The notes beneath the pieces were generated by a model. That model had not been told where the DNA came from and did not search any database. It saw only the letters and a program-made list of their open reading frames with translations. Below are positions 20,892-28,706 of a stretch of 64,000 nt of DNA, piece after piece. The position numbers and the translations under genes are program-made. The stretch is from the NCBI RefSeq assembly GCF_020217425.1, contig NZ_CP084090.1:2976001-3040000 (forward strand), given 5' to 3'. The stretch comes from Halomicrobium urmianum (GTDB taxonomy: Archaea; Halobacteriota; Halobacteria; Halobacteriales; Haloarculaceae). Position 1 is the first letter of the stretch, and each line of letters begins with the position of its first letter.

Positions 20892-21569
20892 ATGGAGCCC
20901 ACCTACCGGGACCGGGCGGTCGTCCTCGGAGAGGCGCTCGTGCTCGCTGACCTCCACGTCGGGAAGGGGACCTCGAACCTGGAGCTGCCCGTCGGTGGCG
21001 CGACGGACGTGGTCGAGCGCTTCGAGGCGCTGGTCGAGCGCTACGAGCCCAGAGCGGTGGTGTTCGGCGGCGACCTGCTGCACTCCTTCTCGACGGTCCC
21101 GCGGTCGGTCCGGCGCACGGTCGACGCGCTGGCGGCGGCCTGTCGCGAGGCCGGGGCTCGGCCCGTGGTGACGCCGGGGAACCACGACACGATGCTCGAC
21201 GTGGCGTGGGACGGACCGACCGAGCGCGAGTACCGGGTGGGCGACGCGGTGGTGCTCCACGGTCACGAGCCGCCGGAGGCCGAGGCCGACCTCTACGTCG
21301 TCGGCCACGACCATCCGACCGTCGAGATAGAGGGCCAGCGGCGGGCCTGCTACCTGTACGCCGAGGACGCCTACGAGGGCGCCGACGTGCTGATGCTGCC
21401 CGCGTTCAACCGCCTGCTGGCCGGCGTCGACGTCGGGGGAATGTCGACTGCGGACTTCCAGTCGCCGCTGATCACCGACGCCGACCGGTTCCGGCCGATC
21501 GTCTACGACGAGGCGAGCGAGGAGCCCCTGGAATTTCCGCCGCTCGGGGAGATCCGGCGGATGCTGTGA
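20892..21569 (+). CDS. Archaeal metallophosphoesterase (SbcD-related, MJ0037 type)
   Basis: A 225-residue calcineurin-like phosphoesterase with all metal-binding blocks: ADLHVGK, GGDLLHS, GNHD and GHDHPT, plus an upstream His in VVLHGHEP. The short length and single domain match the archaeal SbcD-related phosphoesterase family rather than full-length Mre11. Likely two Mn or Fe ions are bound; the substrate (nucleic acid or phosphodiester) is unknown. The chosen ATG at 20892 gives the usual N-terminus just before EALVLADLHVG. No ABC ATPase partner gene is adjacent. Confidence 0.9.
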   Translation: MEPTYRDRAVVLGEALVLADLHVGKGTSNLELPVGGATDVVERFEALVERYEPRAVVFGGDLLHSFSTVPRSVRRTVDALAAACREAGARPVVTPGNHDTMLDVAWDGPTEREYRVGDAVVLHGHEPPEAEADLYVVGHDHPTVEIEGQRRACYLYAEDAYEGADVLMLPAFNRLLAGVDVGGMSTADFQSPLITDADRFRPIVYDEASEEPLEFPPLGEIRRML

Positions 21570-21921: not shown

Positions 21922-23187
21922 TCACTCCAGCAGCGTCTCGGCGGCGATCCGTCCGCTTTCCAGCGCGCCCTGGATCGACGACCAGCGGGTGTAGTCGCCG
22001 GCCAGCACGACCGGACCCGCTGGCGCCGTCGGGGCCGGCAGCCTCGCCAGGAACCCCGGCGGCTGTTCGAACTGCGCGAACGGGATCCGGTCCGTGGCGA
22101 CGTGTTCCAGGTCGGCGAAGCTCGCCTCGGGGTACCACCGTGACAGGGCCGAGCGCACCTCGTCGAACAGCGCCGTGTCGCTGTTCTCCTGCGTCCCGAG
22201 GAAGGTCGCGGCGTACAGCTCACGGCCCTCGGGCGCGTACTCGGGAGCGACCCGTGACATCGGTGCGACGTGGTTCGGCCGGTCGTCCGCTGCGTTCAGC
22301 ACGAGCCGCCGGTCCGTCTCCGGCCGCCCCCCCGACGGCAGGCTCACGTACTGGGTGACGCAGCCACGCCCCTCGGTCGGTATCCCGTCGACGCCGGTCA
22401 GCTCCCGGGCGGTCGGGGGATCCGTCGCCACCACGACTCCGTCGGCAGCGACCGCCTCGCCGCCGACGGTGACGGTCGCGCCGTCGGCGTCCGCCTCGTC
22501 TCCTCCGTCCACCGCGTCGACCGTCCGGCCGGTCTCGATCCGCGCTCCCGCCGCCCGGGCGCGCTCGGCCAGTTGCGCCGGAATCGCGCCCATCCCGTCG
22601 GCGGGGACGGCGGTGCGCCCCTCTGCCATCATCTTGAACGCGTACTCGAACACCGCGCTGTCGGTGCCCAGCGACCGGTCGAGGGTGATGCCGCCGAAGA
22701 AGGGCTTCGCGAACGACTCGACGAAGGCCCGCGAGAACCCCTGCGCGACGAGGTAGTCGGCGGTGGTCGACCCGCCACGCCGGAGGATGTCCGCGGGTTC
22801 GTCCCCGGCGAGCGCTCGCTGGAGCCGGAACACGCGCAGCTTGTCCCCGAACTGCACCTCGCGGTTGAGCAGCGTCTCGATGGCCTCGCCCGGCGCGCCC
22901 AGCGGGTCCGCCAGGACCGATCGCTCGCCCGGCCGGGCGATGGTCGCACCCGGCGTGAACGAGCGCAGGTCCAGCGCGTCGAGGTCCAGCTCCCGCCGGA
23001 CGGCGGGATACGCCGTGAAGAGCACCTGGAAGCCCCTGTCCAGCGTGTAGCCGTCGACGGTCCGGGAGGCGACACGTCCGCCGACCCGGTCCGCCCGCTC
23101 GAACACCCTCACGTCCGCGCCTGACTCCGCCAGGTGCGCGGCCGCCGTCAGCCCCGCCAGTCCGCCGCCGGCGACGACGTATTCCAT
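21922..23187 (-). CDS. FAD-dependent amine oxidase/phytoene desaturase-like protein
   Basis: A 421-residue flavoprotein. It opens with the Rossmann motif VVAGGGLAGLTAAAHLAESG, then the ADRVGGRV motif that binds the adenylate ribose, and ends with a C-terminal FAD motif GDYTRWSSIQGALESGR. This domain order is that of phytoene desaturase, protoporphyrinogen oxidase and amine oxidases. Substrate not determinable; carotenoid metabolism is possible in haloarchaea. A TATA-like CATTTTAC (minus strand, 23211-23219) lies 28 nt before the ATG, indicating a leaderless single gene. Confidence 0.9.
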   Translation of the reverse strand: MEYVVAGGGLAGLTAAAHLAESGADVRVFERADRVGGRVASRTVDGYTLDRGFQVLFTAYPAVRRELDLDALDLRSFTPGATIARPGERSVLADPLGAPGEAIETLLNREVQFGDKLRVFRLQRALAGDEPADILRRGGSTTADYLVAQGFSRAFVESFAKPFFGGITLDRSLGTDSAVFEYAFKMMAEGRTAVPADGMGAIPAQLAERARAAGARIETGRTVDAVDGGDEADADGATVTVGGEAVAADGVVVATDPPTARELTGVDGIPTEGRGCVTQYVSLPSGGRPETDRRLVLNAADDRPNHVAPMSRVAPEYAPEGRELYAATFLGTQENSDTALFDEVRSALSRWYPEASFADLEHVATDRIPFAQFEQPPGFLARLPAPTAPAGPVVLAGDYTRWSSIQGALESGRIAAETLLE

Positions 23188-23358: not shown

Positions 23359-23388
23359 GCCGGCCGGGTTGGGGTGGTCCCGGCCGGC
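23359..23388 (+). promoter_or_regulatory. GC-rich hairpin in the 5' leader of the lyase gene
   Basis: A perfect 10-bp stem, GCCGGCCGGG at 23359-23368 with CCCGGCCGGC at 23379-23388, and a 10-nt loop. It lies between the AT-rich promoter and the ribosome-binding site, so it would be part of the transcript. Confidence 0.6.
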
Positions 23389-23467
23389 ATCCCCCTACGT
23401 TTCACGGGACGAACGGGGTGGCGGCCGCACGGTCCGCTCCTGTGCGGTCGCGATTTCGATACTACTC

Positions 23468-23474
23468 AGGGAGG
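23468..23474 (+). promoter_or_regulatory. Strong Shine-Dalgarno of the lyase gene
   Basis: AGGGAGG ends seven bases before the ATG at 23482. It fixes this start and shows that this gene, unlike many here, uses a leadered message. Confidence 0.7.
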
Positions 23475-23481
23475 AATACAC

Positions 23482-25945
23482 ATGCGGGAACACGCGAACG
23501 ACAACAGAGGGGAATCGGCACCGTTCGATTCGGGAGCGCTCGGCACGGATCGGCGCGATTTCGTGAAGCTAGTCGGGAGCCAGGCGCTCGCCGGCGCGGT
23601 CGGCACGGCGGCCCTGTCCGGGGCGGCCGGCGCGGCCGTCACGACGGCCGAGATATCGCCGAGCGACGGCTTCGCGGACGTGGCGCCGTGGCTCGAGGCG
23701 GAGGACGTCGACGTCCACAGAATCACCGAACCGACGCGCAGCGAGGTCGAGGCGGCCTTCCACGCGTCGGGCGCGCGCGTGGTCGTCTTCGAGACGAGCG
23801 GCACGATCGACCTCGGCGGCGACCGCCTCCAGATCACCGAGGACAAGTGCTGGGTGGCGGGTCAGACCGCGCCCTCGCCGGGGATCACGTTCATCAACGG
23901 GATGGTACAGGTCGCCGCGAACGACTGCGTCGTCCAGCACGTCCGCTCGCGGATCGGACCGGGTTCGGACGGCGACATCCAGGGCAACGACTCGATCAAC
24001 ACCGCCGACGAGACGACGAACAACGTCATCGACCACTGCACGGCCTCGTAGGGTACCGACGAGTGCATGTCCGTCGGCTACGACACCGACCGGACGACGT
24101 ACTCGAACAACCTCATCTACGAGGGGCTGTATGACCCCTACGGCGACGGCTCGGACCACAACTACGCCACCCTCGTCGGCGACGGCGCCACGCGCGTCGC
24201 GCTGCTGGGTAACGTCTGGTCGAAGGTGCGCAACCGCGTACCGCGACTCAAGAGCGACACGACCAGCGTCGTCGCGAACAACTTCGCGTACTTCTTCGAC
24301 GAGGCGTGTAGCACCGACGGCTCGGCCGAGACGGCCTGGGTCGGCAACAAGTTCACCGGGACCGCCGCGACGGGCGAGTCCATCGTCGAGGGGAGCGGGA
24401 CGGTCTACGGCGAGGACAACGTCACGGCGGACCCGCAGATCGACTCGGACGTCGACTTCGTCAAGACCGGCACGGTCGGTAGCAAGCCGCTGTGGCCGCC
24501 CGGCTTCTCCGCGATGTCGTCCTCACGGGTCGAGCAGCACAACCTGGCGAACCCGGCGCGCGGCCGGCCGATCGGACCGCCAACGACGAGCGGATCGTCC
24601 GGGAGATCCGGAACCGCGCCGGCAACGACCGGCTCGACTCCGAGTACGGCTACTGGATCCCGCATCCCGACGCGGTCGGCGGGTACCCGGACCTGCCGGT
24701 GAACGCGCACACGCTGGACGTGCCCGACAGCGGGCTCCGCAAGTGGCTCTCGGAGTGGGCCGCCGAGGTCGAGGGCGACGATCCGTCGACCCCGACGCCG
24801 TCTGACCCCGACGAGACGGCGCCGTCGACGCCGCCAGGCCTGACGGTCACGGAGACGACGGCCTCGTCGATCACCTGGAGTGGGACGCCGCGAGCGATCG
24901 GGGCGGCTCCGGACTCGACCAGTACCACGTCACGTACGACATCGTCCACGACGGACCCGGCGGCGACGCCGGCATGACCAGTCGGGGCGTCCCGGCCGGG
25001 ACCACGAGCGTGACGCTCGAACAGGTGGATCCGGACACCGAGTACGCGATCGCCGTCAGCGCCGTCGACAGCGCCGGCAACGAGTCTGGCGCCGCGACGG
25101 TCACCGCATCGACCGAGAGTGCCACCGGCGACCGCACCGGCGGTCGCGGCCCGATCGCCGTCCGCGGCGGCGGCGCGGACATCTGGAACGAGGCGGACGC
25201 GTTCCACTACTACTACGGCCGGGCCGGCGGCGACTTCGACGTCGCCGTCAGGGTCGCCGCCGTCGAGGAGACCGACTCCTACGCCAAGGCCGGTCTGATG
25301 GTCCGCGACTCGCGCGACGCCGGCGCGGCCAACGTCATGATCCGCCGACGGCCGAGTTCGACGGGCGTCCAGTGGCGGGCCAGCGCCGGCGGGACCACCG
25401 ATAGCACTACCTCCAGCGAGGGCCAGTCGGAGAGCGAAGTCCCCGGCGGGACGACCGACCACGCCTGGCAGCGACTGGTCCGGTCCGGTGACGTGATCCG
25501 GGCCTACTCCTCGCCCGACGGCGTCGAGTGGACGCTGCTCGCCGACCTGTCCCTGTCGCTGTCGGACGACGTCTACGTCGGACTCGCAGTCACCAGCCAC
25601 GCCGAGGGGACGCTGTGTACAGCCGAGTTCGACGGCTTCAGCGGCCTGCGGCTGACGAGCAACCGCGACGTCGGTGACGTCGACGCCGCGGGCGACGTCG
25701 AGGACGACGGCGGACCCGACCACTCCCCGTTGCCGGAGGTCGACGGCGTCGAGGTGAACGACCCCGACGGCGACGGCGACTACGAAGACCTCAACGGCAA
25801 CGGCGAGACCGACTTCCAGGACGTCGTCGAGTACTTCGACCACATGGACGACCCGGCAGTGACTGACAACGTCGACGCCTTCGACTACAACGGCAACGAC
25901 GAGATCGACTTCGCCGACCTCGTGGAGCTGTTCAGGGAGGTGTAG
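23482..25945 (+). pseudogene. Secreted pectate-lyase-like multidomain protein, broken by one stop and two frameshifts
   Basis: Read through its lesions this encodes about 820 residues: a Tat signal (TDRRDFVKLVGSQALAGAVG), a right-handed beta-helix polysaccharide-lyase domain (DKCWVAGQTAPSPGITFING, DHNYATLVGDG, RNRVPRLK), a fibronectin type III domain (PPGLTVTETTASSITWS, VDSAGNES), a DUF1349-like jelly-roll (DAFHYYYGRAGGDFDVAVRV) and a C-terminal pair of dockerin-like EF-hand loops (DPDGDGDYEDLNGNGETDF; DYNGNDEIDF). A TAG at 24049-24051 stands where Trp is expected (TAS-stop-GTDECMSVG). A one-base deletion near 24551-24553 and another near 24881 shift frame. Each lesion is a single-base change, so decay is recent or these are assembly errors. 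Confidence 0.85.
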
Positions 25946-26063
25946 CCGGGCGGAGGCGCCGCGGCGGACCGCACGGGACCGCCTTTCCGGCACCCGCCGC
26001 GGTCGGCGCCCCCCGGAGCGACACATCGCACCACACAAGGCAATGCCCGTTCGAGTCGGGCCC

Positions 26064-27230
26064 ATGGACACGACGACGGCGTTTCGCGGGCTGGAGTGCG
26101 TCGACTGCGGGGCGACGGCGCCCGACGGGAGCTACCGCTGTCCCGACTGCGGCGGGCTGCTCCGCGGGACCTACGACGCGGACGCGGTCCCGGATGCCGG
26201 CGACCTGAACGGGCGCGACCCGGGCCCCTACCGGGTCGCCGAACTGCTCCCTTTCTCGCGAGACGACGCAGTCACGATGGACGAGGGCGCCACGCCGGCG
26301 ACGGCGTGCCCGTCGCTGGCGGACGAGTTCGGCGTCGACCGACTGCTCGTCAAGGACGAGGGCCGCAACCCGACGGGCGCTGCGACCGACCGGGGCCTGT
26401 CGCTGGCGGTCACCGCCGCCCGGGACGGCGACGCGGCGGCCGTCGCGCTGCCGACGACGGGCAACGGCGGCCAGTCGGCCGCCGCCTACGCCGGGCGGGC
26501 CGGGCTGGACTCCCACTCGGTCGTCCCCTCGCGGTGTCCCTTCGTCAACAAGGCCATGATCAACGTCCACGGCGGCGACATGAACGTCGTCGAGGGGCGC
26601 TATCCCGACGCGGTCGAGGCCTACGAGGACGGCCGCGAGGACGACTGGGCACCGGTCGGCCCGGCCTCGCCGTACCGCCGCGAGGGGCTGAAGGGAATCT
26701 ACTTCGAGGTCGCTGCGGCGCTCTCGTGGTCCGCTCCGGACGCGCTCGTCGTCCCGACCGGTCACGGAACCACACTCGCGGCGACCGACGCCGCGGCTAC
26801 CCAGCTCGCCGACGCGGGCGTCGTGGCCGAGACGCCCCGGCTCTACGCGGCCCAGCCGACGGGCTGTGCACCCGTCGTCGACGCCGTGGCGGACGGCGAA
26901 GTCGTCCCGGCGGAGCAGCCGGACTCCATCGTGGGGTCGCTGGAGGTGCCCGATCCCGTCCTCGGCGACCGGGCCGCCGCCGCGGTCCGCGAGAGCGGCG
27001 GCGAGGGAGTCGCAGTGGACGACGACGACGCGCTCGCCGCCGCAGTGGACGCGGCCGGCGACACCGGACTGGAGGTCGGCGCGACGGGCGGCGTCGGCGT
27101 CGCCGCGGCGCGCGAACTGGCGGACCTGGGCGCGTTCGACGCCGACGACGCCGTGGCCGTCGTCAACCCCGTCGCCGGCGGCAAGGAGGACGACCTGCTG
27201 CGGAGCCACCTGATGACTCGGGGCGTCTGA
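26064..27230 (+). CDS. Threonine-synthase-like PLP-fold protein lacking the Schiff-base lysine
   Basis: A 388-residue protein of fold-type II PLP enzymes. An N-terminal zinc ribbon (C12, C15, C26, C29) and LVKDEGRNPTG match threonine synthase, but the block that normally reads SFKDRG is GAATDRG, with Thr108 where the cofactor-binding Lys belongs. The phosphate-binding glycine loop is TTGNGGQ. The rest of the fold is intact (PTGHGTTLAA; NPVAGGKEDDLL). It is either a non-catalytic or altered-function paralogue. An ATG at 26043 could add seven residues. It stands alone between the lyase pseudogene and a convergent J-domain gene. Confidence 0.85.
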   Translation: MDTTTAFRGLECVDCGATAPDGSYRCPDCGGLLRGTYDADAVPDAGDLNGRDPGPYRVAELLPFSRDDAVTMDEGATPATACPSLADEFGVDRLLVKDEGRNPTGAATDRGLSLAVTAARDGDAAAVALPTTGNGGQSAAAYAGRAGLDSHSVVPSRCPFVNKAMINVHGGDMNVVEGRYPDAVEAYEDGREDDWAPVGPASPYRREGLKGIYFEVAAALSWSAPDALVVPTGHGTTLAATDAAATQLADAGVVAETPRLYAAQPTGCAPVVDAVADGEVVPAEQPDSIVGSLEVPDPVLGDRAAAAVRESGGEGVAVDDDDALAAAVDAAGDTGLEVGATGGVGVAAARELADLGAFDADDAVAVVNPVAGGKEDDLLRSHLMTRGV

Positions 27231-27260: not shown

Positions 27261-27881
27261 TCAGTCCGCTGGCCGCGCCTCGACGGCGTGGCGCTTGGCG
27301 GTCGTGTAGGCCTCGCGGACGCGGCGGAACTCGTCCTCGTCGCCGCCGTGGTCCGGGTGGACCTCCTTGACCTTGCTGCGGTAGGCGGCCTTGACCTCCT
27401 CCAGCGTGGCGGACGTGGGCAGCCCCAGCTCCCGGAACGCTGCAGCGGTGGGATGCTCCCGGCGCTCCTCAGTCTCGTCGGGGCCGAAGTCGACCTCGGG
27501 CGTCTCGAAGGGCAGGCGGGCGCCGAGCTGGACGCCCGGCATCTCGTGTTCGACCAGGACCGGACGGGTCGCCGAGCGCTCGATCCGGTAGTAGGCGCGG
27601 GCGTCGAACGTGATGGCGACGTCCCGCTTCGGGAGGTAGAAGGCGACGTGCTGGCCCTCGACGAAGTGGTCCTCGGCGTACTGCTCGTCGACGGCGTCGA
27701 GGTACTCGCGCAGCTCCGCGCGGCGGCGCTTCTCGCCGCCCCGTCGGCCCCGCGCCACGGGGCGACTCGGGAAGTAGCGGACCGCGACGAAGAAGAGGGC
27801 CGCAACCACGAGGCTCCCCAGGACGCCGACGCCCACACCTACGAGGAGCCACTCCGGCCACGCACCGGGATCGAGTTGCAC
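27261..27881 (-). CDS. Membrane-anchored protein with C-terminal J domain
   Basis: A 206-residue protein with one transmembrane helix (residues 11-36, LLVGVGVGVLGSLVVAALFF), a basic juxtamembrane region, a beta-rich middle (HVAFYLPKRDVAITF) and a C-terminal J domain from about 145 with the HPD tripeptide in KEVHPDHGG. The J domain would recruit DnaK to the membrane. This order, membrane helix first and J domain last, differs from classical DnaJ (encoded at 56464-57612). Convergent with the PLP-fold gene. A recognised haloarchaeal arrangement, but client unknown. Confidence 0.88.
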   Translation of the reverse strand: MQLDPGAWPEWLLVGVGVGVLGSLVVAALFFVAVRYFPSRPVARGRRGGEKRRRAELREYLDAVDEQYAEDHFVEGQHVAFYLPKRDVAITFDARAYYRIERSATRPVLVEHEMPGVQLGARLPFETPEVDFGPDETEERREHPTAAAFRELGLPTSATLEEVKAAYRSKVKEVHPDHGGDEDEFRRVREAYTTAKRHAVEARPAD

Positions 27882-27950: not shown

Positions 27951-28706
27951 TCAACCGATGTAGCGGAGGTCCTCGTCGGAGGTCGTCGGCGACCCCTGCT
28001 CCATCTCCTGGATCTTCCGGACGACTTCCTCCATCTCCTCGGCGCGGTCCTCCAGGGAGCCGTAGTCGACATCGAAGCCGACGAGATCCTCGAGGGTCTC
28101 CAGCACCGCCTGCGCGCTCTTGGGGTCGACGAGGTAGCCGGACGTCTCGCCCATGAGGCAGGCCGCCGGCAGGTCGCGACGGTCGCTCAGGCCCAGCAGG
28201 AGACCGGAGACGCCGACGATGCCGCCGGCGGGCTCGTTCTCGCGGAACTCGACGCCCACGTCTTCGAGGTCCTCGATCAGGTCGTCGGTCGTCGTCGCGC
28301 CGACGACGTCGTACTCCTCGATGAGCTCGCCCGTGGGGACGCCGCCCAGCGCGTACACCGTCTCGACGCCGAACTCCTCGGCGACGTCGAGGAAGGTGTC
28401 GGTCAGGCCGTAGTGGCCCTCGTTGTCCTGCGCCTGGTGGTCGCCGGTCAGCACGAGCAGGTCTCGGCCCTCCTCGGGCGTGACGGCGTGGAACTCCGCG
28501 CAAGCGAGTTGCGTGCGCCCCTCCTCGACGCTCACCTGCGGTGGGAAGTGACGGGAGTAGACGCGCCGCACTAGCTCGCTGTCGAGTTCCTCCAGCAGGT
28601 GCTCGGCGGCGAGCTTGCCGACGTGGCCGACGCCGGGCAGGCCCTCGATGAGGACCGGCTCCGAGAGGTCGACCTCCGCGTGAGACTCGATGTCGAACTC
28701 GTCCAT
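27951..28706 (-). CDS. PAC2-family proteasome-assembly-chaperone-like protein
   Basis: A 251-residue protein of the PAC2/ATP-grasp-like superfamily. Conserved blocks are LIEGLPGVGHVGKLAAEHL, LVLTGDHQAQD, ALGGVPTGEL and GLLLGLSDRRDLPAACLMGE. Archaeal homologues (PbaA/PbaB group) are tied to proteasome assembly or regulation. The C-terminal 50 residues are helical and acidic. It is the last gene of the rpl44e-rps27e-aIF2alpha-nop10 operon; four bases separate its ATG from the nop10 stop, as in many archaea. Confidence 0.92.
   Translation of the reverse strand: MDEFDIESHAEVDLSEPVLIEGLPGVGHVGKLAAEHLLEELDSELVRRVYSRHFPPQVSVEEGRTQLACAEFHAVTPEEGRDLLVLTGDHQAQDNEGHYGLTDTFLDVAEEFGVETVYALGGVPTGELIEEYDVVGATTTDDLIEDLEDVGVEFRENEPAGGIVGVSGLLLGLSDRRDLPAACLMGETSGYLVDPKSAQAVLETLEDLVGFDVDYGSLEDRAEEMEEVVRKIQEMEQGSPTTSDEDLRYIG

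Follow-up and report, generated by a model that had tools for sequence, protein, structure and literature searches.

The PLP lysine is usually held to be indispensable, and databases call proteins of the kind described here, from which it is missing, 'threonine synthase'. Two proteins of the cysteine synthase lineage, CYSL-1 of C. elegans and CysK of E. coli, differ by that lineage from the protein described here; both retain the PLP lysine, and CYSL-1 acts through a protein-binding mechanism. Both are reported to be fold-type II proteins that bind other proteins (PMC10942545, PMC5562914). The nearest documented parallel is TSB-like of eudicot plants, a fold-type II pseudoenzyme that activates a partner without catalysis (PMC12727527), i.e., the fold is kept, catalysis is lost and the protein works through partner binding. 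TSB-like differs in that it belongs to the tryptophan synthase beta lineage and carries E190A and D386E as its key changes, with the PLP lysine not among them (PMC12727527), and in that it is a paralogue derived from duplication, whereas the haloarchaeal case is a recurrent loss in orthologues at one locus. In Haloferax volcanii, a mutant with a transposon in thrC3 (HVO_2969) grew with glycine, serine and threonine all supplied (PMC4300041).

Here, we analysed a window of 64,000 nucleotides (the term denotes the whole stretch of DNA) from a genome whose nearest named relative is Halomicrobium katesii, and compared its Lys-less threonine-synthase-like protein with relatives across Halobacteriales. 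No earlier description of Lys-less haloarchaeal threonine synthases, and none of residue roles in Thermus ThrC, was found in the literature searched. The Lys-bearing NF006050/PRK08197 'threonine synthase' (e.g., that of Halorarius halobius, L004) shares with the window protein its orthologous group, fold, zinc ribbon, locus and both the KDEG-NPTG-DR and NKAMINVHGG motifs. It differs in that Lys115, Thr376 and a GGGVG phosphate loop are all present, and its NF006050 score is 386 bits (cut-off 303), compared with 228.2 bits for the window protein. The genome also carries a canonical ThrC (L012, TIGR00260), a point raised in the first-pass annotation. This protein has a fold-type II PLP fold and a zinc ribbon like the window protein, to which it is 35% identical, but keeps the lysine and the full PLP site and scores 298 bits at a cut-off of 167.1, compared with 119 bits for the window protein. 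Because the window protein falls below the NF006050 cut-off and is without the defining lysine, we do not file it as a threonine synthase. In the Lys members (L004, L005, L034 and others), the SAGNAGQ and PTGGGVG motifs are closer to those of threonine/serine dehydratases (SAGNHAQ, GGGG) than to those of ThrC (STGNTS, GNAGN). The NCBI model names the Lys form threonine synthase, a label that, given these dehydratase-like motifs, may also be wrong.

The window gene and its diagnostic positions are given below. Residues are numbered along the 395-amino-acid open reading frame from 26043 (26043–27230, plus strand); Thr108 counted from Met 26064 is Thr115.

26064–27230, plus strand: Lys-less threonine-synthase-like protein, 388 amino acids from Met 26064; intact open reading frame, PALP profile (PF00291) match of 189.7 bits, AlphaFold model.
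26097–26150, plus strand: N-terminal zinc ribbon, Cys19/22/33/36, all four invariant in an 11-sequence alignment.
26385–26387, plus strand: Thr115 codon (ACC), the Schiff-base Lys position by alignment to PDB threonine synthases and 123 family members.
26457–26459, plus strand: Thr139; 44 of 46 Lys members have Ala, which became Thr in four of six recent independent losses.
26763–26765, plus strand: His241, part of the phosphate loop; each of 46 Lys members has Gly.
27168–27170, plus strand: Pro376, at the pyridine-N1 position; each of 46 Lys members has Thr.

The start at Met 26064, as given in the first-pass annotation, agrees with the family start motif METT. The PF00291 match places the protein in the PLP fold-type II superfamily as far as the fold is concerned. 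Its AlphaFold model (mean pLDDT 83.6) has threonine synthases as best PDB matches (Z 36–42), and the matched model of Lys-bearing L004 (pLDDT 84.5) shows no difference in fold that would separate the two. The site motif reads NPTGAATDRG, compared with NPTGSFKDRG in solved threonine synthases, and Thr115 aligns with the Schiff-base lysine of the threonine synthases 2zsj, 6cgq and 1uim. The first-pass annotation had read a threonine in place of the PLP lysine, at least two codon changes away from it; the alignment bears this out, and ACC is two changes away from AAG. Its statement that the rest of the fold and the zinc ribbon are kept is right for the fold and the four cysteines and wrong for the phosphate loop (PTGHGTT in the window protein, PTGGGVG in Lys members) and the N1 threonine (Pro376), while Asn141 and the TGN motif are retained. 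From the alignment and Thermus ThrC structures, we take Asn141, the 240–244 loop and Thr376 to be PLP contacts.

A search of 59 relatives and then of 60 chosen genomes, from which the loci were fetched, yielded 123 Halobacteriales members. Genomes usually have a single member, and most members are 40–65% identical to the window protein. The Lys column holds Lys in 47 of them and another residue, of 14 kinds, in 76 (Ala 25, Thr 16, Val 9, Leu 7, Arg 5, Phe 4, Asp 3 and seven residues once each). All seven members from the genus of the window are without Lys, as are dozens across the order, and the alignment places no other lysine at the site. An isolated mutation or sequencing error is ruled out by the uniformly Lys-less genus and by codons that differ by lineage. 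Of 392 Halobacteriales genomes scanned for the motif KD(E/D)xxNPTxxxxDR, 335 contained it and 214 contained its Lys form. The latter count is raised by a related paralogue that carries KDDGRNPTGCFKDR; the Lys-less form is thus the only one in at least about 120 genomes. Beyond Halobacteriales, the best matches are only about 29–35% identical, and the six examined all have Lys and all lack the NKAMINVHGG motif; a plasmid search returned distant 'threonine synthase' matches only. The phosphate-loop His does not by itself diagnose PLP loss, since the Lys-bearing paralogue L014 has GHG as well.

Two groups of members stand apart in other respects. In family f4 (loci L063, L067, L126), the local copy has no Lys, and a large hydrophobic residue (Leu, Phe, Val, Ile or Tyr) occupies the site, compared with the usual Ala or Thr elsewhere. 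A subclade of five members (L061, L062, L121, L123, L124; families f1 g5 and g12) has lost the zinc-ribbon positions C22, C33 and C36, and two of these members keep Lys, i.e., zinc and Lys losses are uncoupled.

The lysine was lost repeatedly. On a 117-row tree with the site columns left out, the fewest Lys-state changes are nine, six of them forced by supported branches, and 16 losses are needed if Lys was never regained. A careful 45-row tree with fifteen pocket columns removed gave six changes, which are nested changes of state, across the whole 5–95% bootstrap range. Lys-bearing sisters of Lys-less members occur at 89–94% identity: L081 (Asn) stands beside L078 (Lys; 94% identical), L088/L090/L094 (Thr) beside L089 (Lys), L096 (Arg) beside L086, L054/L120/L127 (Ala) beside L035, and L009 (Thr) and L006 (Asp) are both near L003. 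Deep Lys-less clades, including that of the window, come in addition to these recent examples. Since Lys is present in the outgroups and a regain of Lys together with the pocket is implausible, the direction of change is loss; the Haloglomus trio may instead represent one loss plus one regain. Sliding nucleotide windows revealed no tract at the site that would indicate import of a Lys-less segment by recombination in L081, L090, L096 or L009, with L054 and L006 too diverged for full judgement.

The genes that flank the Lys-less gene in the window are the following.

20895–21569, plus strand: calcineurin-like phosphoesterase (PF00149), a further conserved neighbour on the upstream side; neighbour cluster at 11 loci.
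21922–23187, minus strand: FAD amine-oxidase-like protein (PF01593, 174 bits), the conserved divergent neighbour; neighbour cluster at 34 loci.
27261–27881, minus strand: DnaJ-domain protein (PF00226), found next downstream across the genus and in some relatives.
27951–28706, minus strand: PAC2-family protein (PF09754), downstream neighbour.

Gene-neighbour clustering found a common divergent FAD amine-oxidase-like gene, often with the phosphoesterase before it, beside Lys members (L003, L005, L034, L044) and Lys-less members (L006, L018, L051, L056 and the window); the gene caller was simple and composition-based, so a neighbour missing from a row means little. Because they occupy the same chromosomal locus, the Lys and Lys-less versions are orthologues, and this locus and the NKAMINVHGG motif place the window protein in the haloarchaeal NF006050-like orthologous group. 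An explanation by paralogues only is ruled out by the locus common to Lys and Lys-less copies, second Lys copies being found elsewhere in some genomes only. Two members each are present in G017, G022, G023, G037, G053, G129, G181 and G224; in G022, G023 and G037 the copy at the shared locus is the Lys-less one. In several of the two-member genomes a Lys-bearing copy is found outside the ancestral locus, and such copies were possibly acquired after the local copy had lost Lys. In the window, a secreted-protein region separates the FAD amine-oxidase-like gene from the Lys-less gene. In this region (23374–25945, plus strand), a secreted polysaccharide-lyase-like protein, with DUF1349 and dockerin/EF-hand-like parts after it, appears to be split over several open reading frames; two of these, 23374–24051 and 24067–24702, lie in one frame and are separated by a stop, a pattern that fits gene decay or a sequencing error.

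We consider it probable that the window protein is a recurrently evolved pseudoenzyme that binds a partner or ligand and does not perform PLP chemistry. Its ancestor, within the haloarchaeal 'threonine synthase' group (NF006050), would have been a fold-type II PLP enzyme encoded at one locus next to the FAD amine-oxidase-like gene. Its catalytic activity would have been, or become, dispensable, and a second role of the folded protein, the binding of a partner protein or small ligand, would not. In many lineages, including that of the window, the Schiff-base lysine would have been lost, the emptied PLP site would then have been reshaped in a repeatable series of changes, and the protein would have been retained for its binding role. 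We infer that PLP is no longer used catalytically and that the remaining role is binding. The first-pass annotation had likewise proposed a repurposed PLP fold, either regulatory or with cofactor-independent chemistry. Purifying selection and parallel pocket changes now back the repurposing; the annotation missed the recurrence of the loss in one orthologous family.

Loss of the lysine is accompanied by parallel changes in the pocket. Among the 133 columns in which Lys members are at least 95% invariant, those most often changed in Lys-less members include F114, A139, G241, V243, G244, N141, T376, K216, M219, Y237 and G306–S308, and PLP-contact columns are retained less than the rest (Mann-Whitney p 0.005). 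Across the six recent losses, eight columns invariant in the Lys clade changed at least three times (0 of 20,000 permutations); the permutation assumes equal rates among invariant columns and thus shows a repeatable path, not by itself adaptation. In the deep Lys-less clades, these eight columns are on average 8% retained, compared with 88% for columns that the recent losses left unchanged. Independent-pairs sign tests per position, with six pairs too few to reach 0.05, were mostly consistent in direction; the permutation took their place. The same new residue appeared in independent losses at A139T (four times) and at K216A, Y237H and A307G (three times each). At position 241, Lys-less members have His more often than any other residue (24 of 70). 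Parallel changes to the same residues (A139T, K216A) could reflect adaptation to a new catalytic role and not only loss. The recurrent replacements and the frequent His241 speak for Lys-less proteins that are still enzymes and that came repeatedly, along one path, to a cofactor-free or non-Schiff-base chemistry. We regard this as unlikely, as no new residue is common to all Lys-less members, several pocket positions vary widely and the Lys site itself holds Ala, Thr, Val, Leu, Phe, Arg, Asp and others; the lack of a functional consensus among these 14 residues argues for the pseudoenzyme.

Close pairs have dN/dS values (NG86) of 0.09–0.34 when Lys-less and 0.05–0.16 when Lys-bearing, i.e., far under 1, and the Lys-less proteins are under purifying selection. 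The somewhat higher Lys-less values mean that part of the signal is relaxation, which counts against the pseudoenzyme. These values, the long branches of some members and the redundancy with thrC (58 of 59 genomes score above the TIGR00260 cut-off, and the other is a 60% complete assembly) are what a decaying gene would show, an unneeded enzyme caught at different stages of loss. Yet the haloarchaeal members retrieved contain no internal stop codons, whole genera and deep clades share the Lys-less state, and dozens of columns are still at least 97% conserved, which makes decay decidedly unlikely. The positions kept at this level in Lys-less members include K104, D105, T111, G112, D116, R117, K170, H176, R212 and G242, and the KDEG/NPTG/DR motif is retained. 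In the family of the window protein, a catalytic residue has been lost from an otherwise conserved protein under selection, which is one mark of a pseudoenzyme.

PLP might still be bound non-covalently, with an external amine or another base in place of the lysine. The overall fold, Asn141 and the TGN motif of the window protein are consistent with such an enzyme, but in relatives the phosphate loop, the N1 threonine and Asn141 are often lost along with Lys; as no Lys-gain column exists among Lys-less members, no substitute lysine was found, and we hold this explanation to be highly improbable. A more specific version of our explanation makes the protein a regulatory subunit in mixed oligomers with either the true ThrC or some other active paralogue. 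It has a precedent in TSB-like, which activates tryptophan synthase alpha (PMC12727527), and is the least probable of all, given only about 35% identity between the family and ThrC and their unlinked genes in the genome.

For the pseudoenzyme that we favour, an anionic compound is one speculative candidate ligand, because K170 and R212, which align with a Lys and an Arg of solved threonine synthases, are at least 97% conserved in Lys-less members. The neighbour genes point to no clear pathway, which counts against a binding pseudoenzyme. More tentatively, and with more doubt than confidence, we propose that one orthologous PLP-fold protein of haloarchaea changed at least six times, by the same active-site path, from an enzyme into a protein that does without the cofactor and has a new function common to all these cases.

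The Lys-less members should not be annotated as enzymes. With repeated loss in one orthologue and close Lys-bearing sisters, the steps from enzyme to pseudoenzyme are directly testable. If repeated conversion to one new function is true, the family would be a replicated natural experiment in the origin of pseudoenzymes, and the new function would be vitamin-independent.
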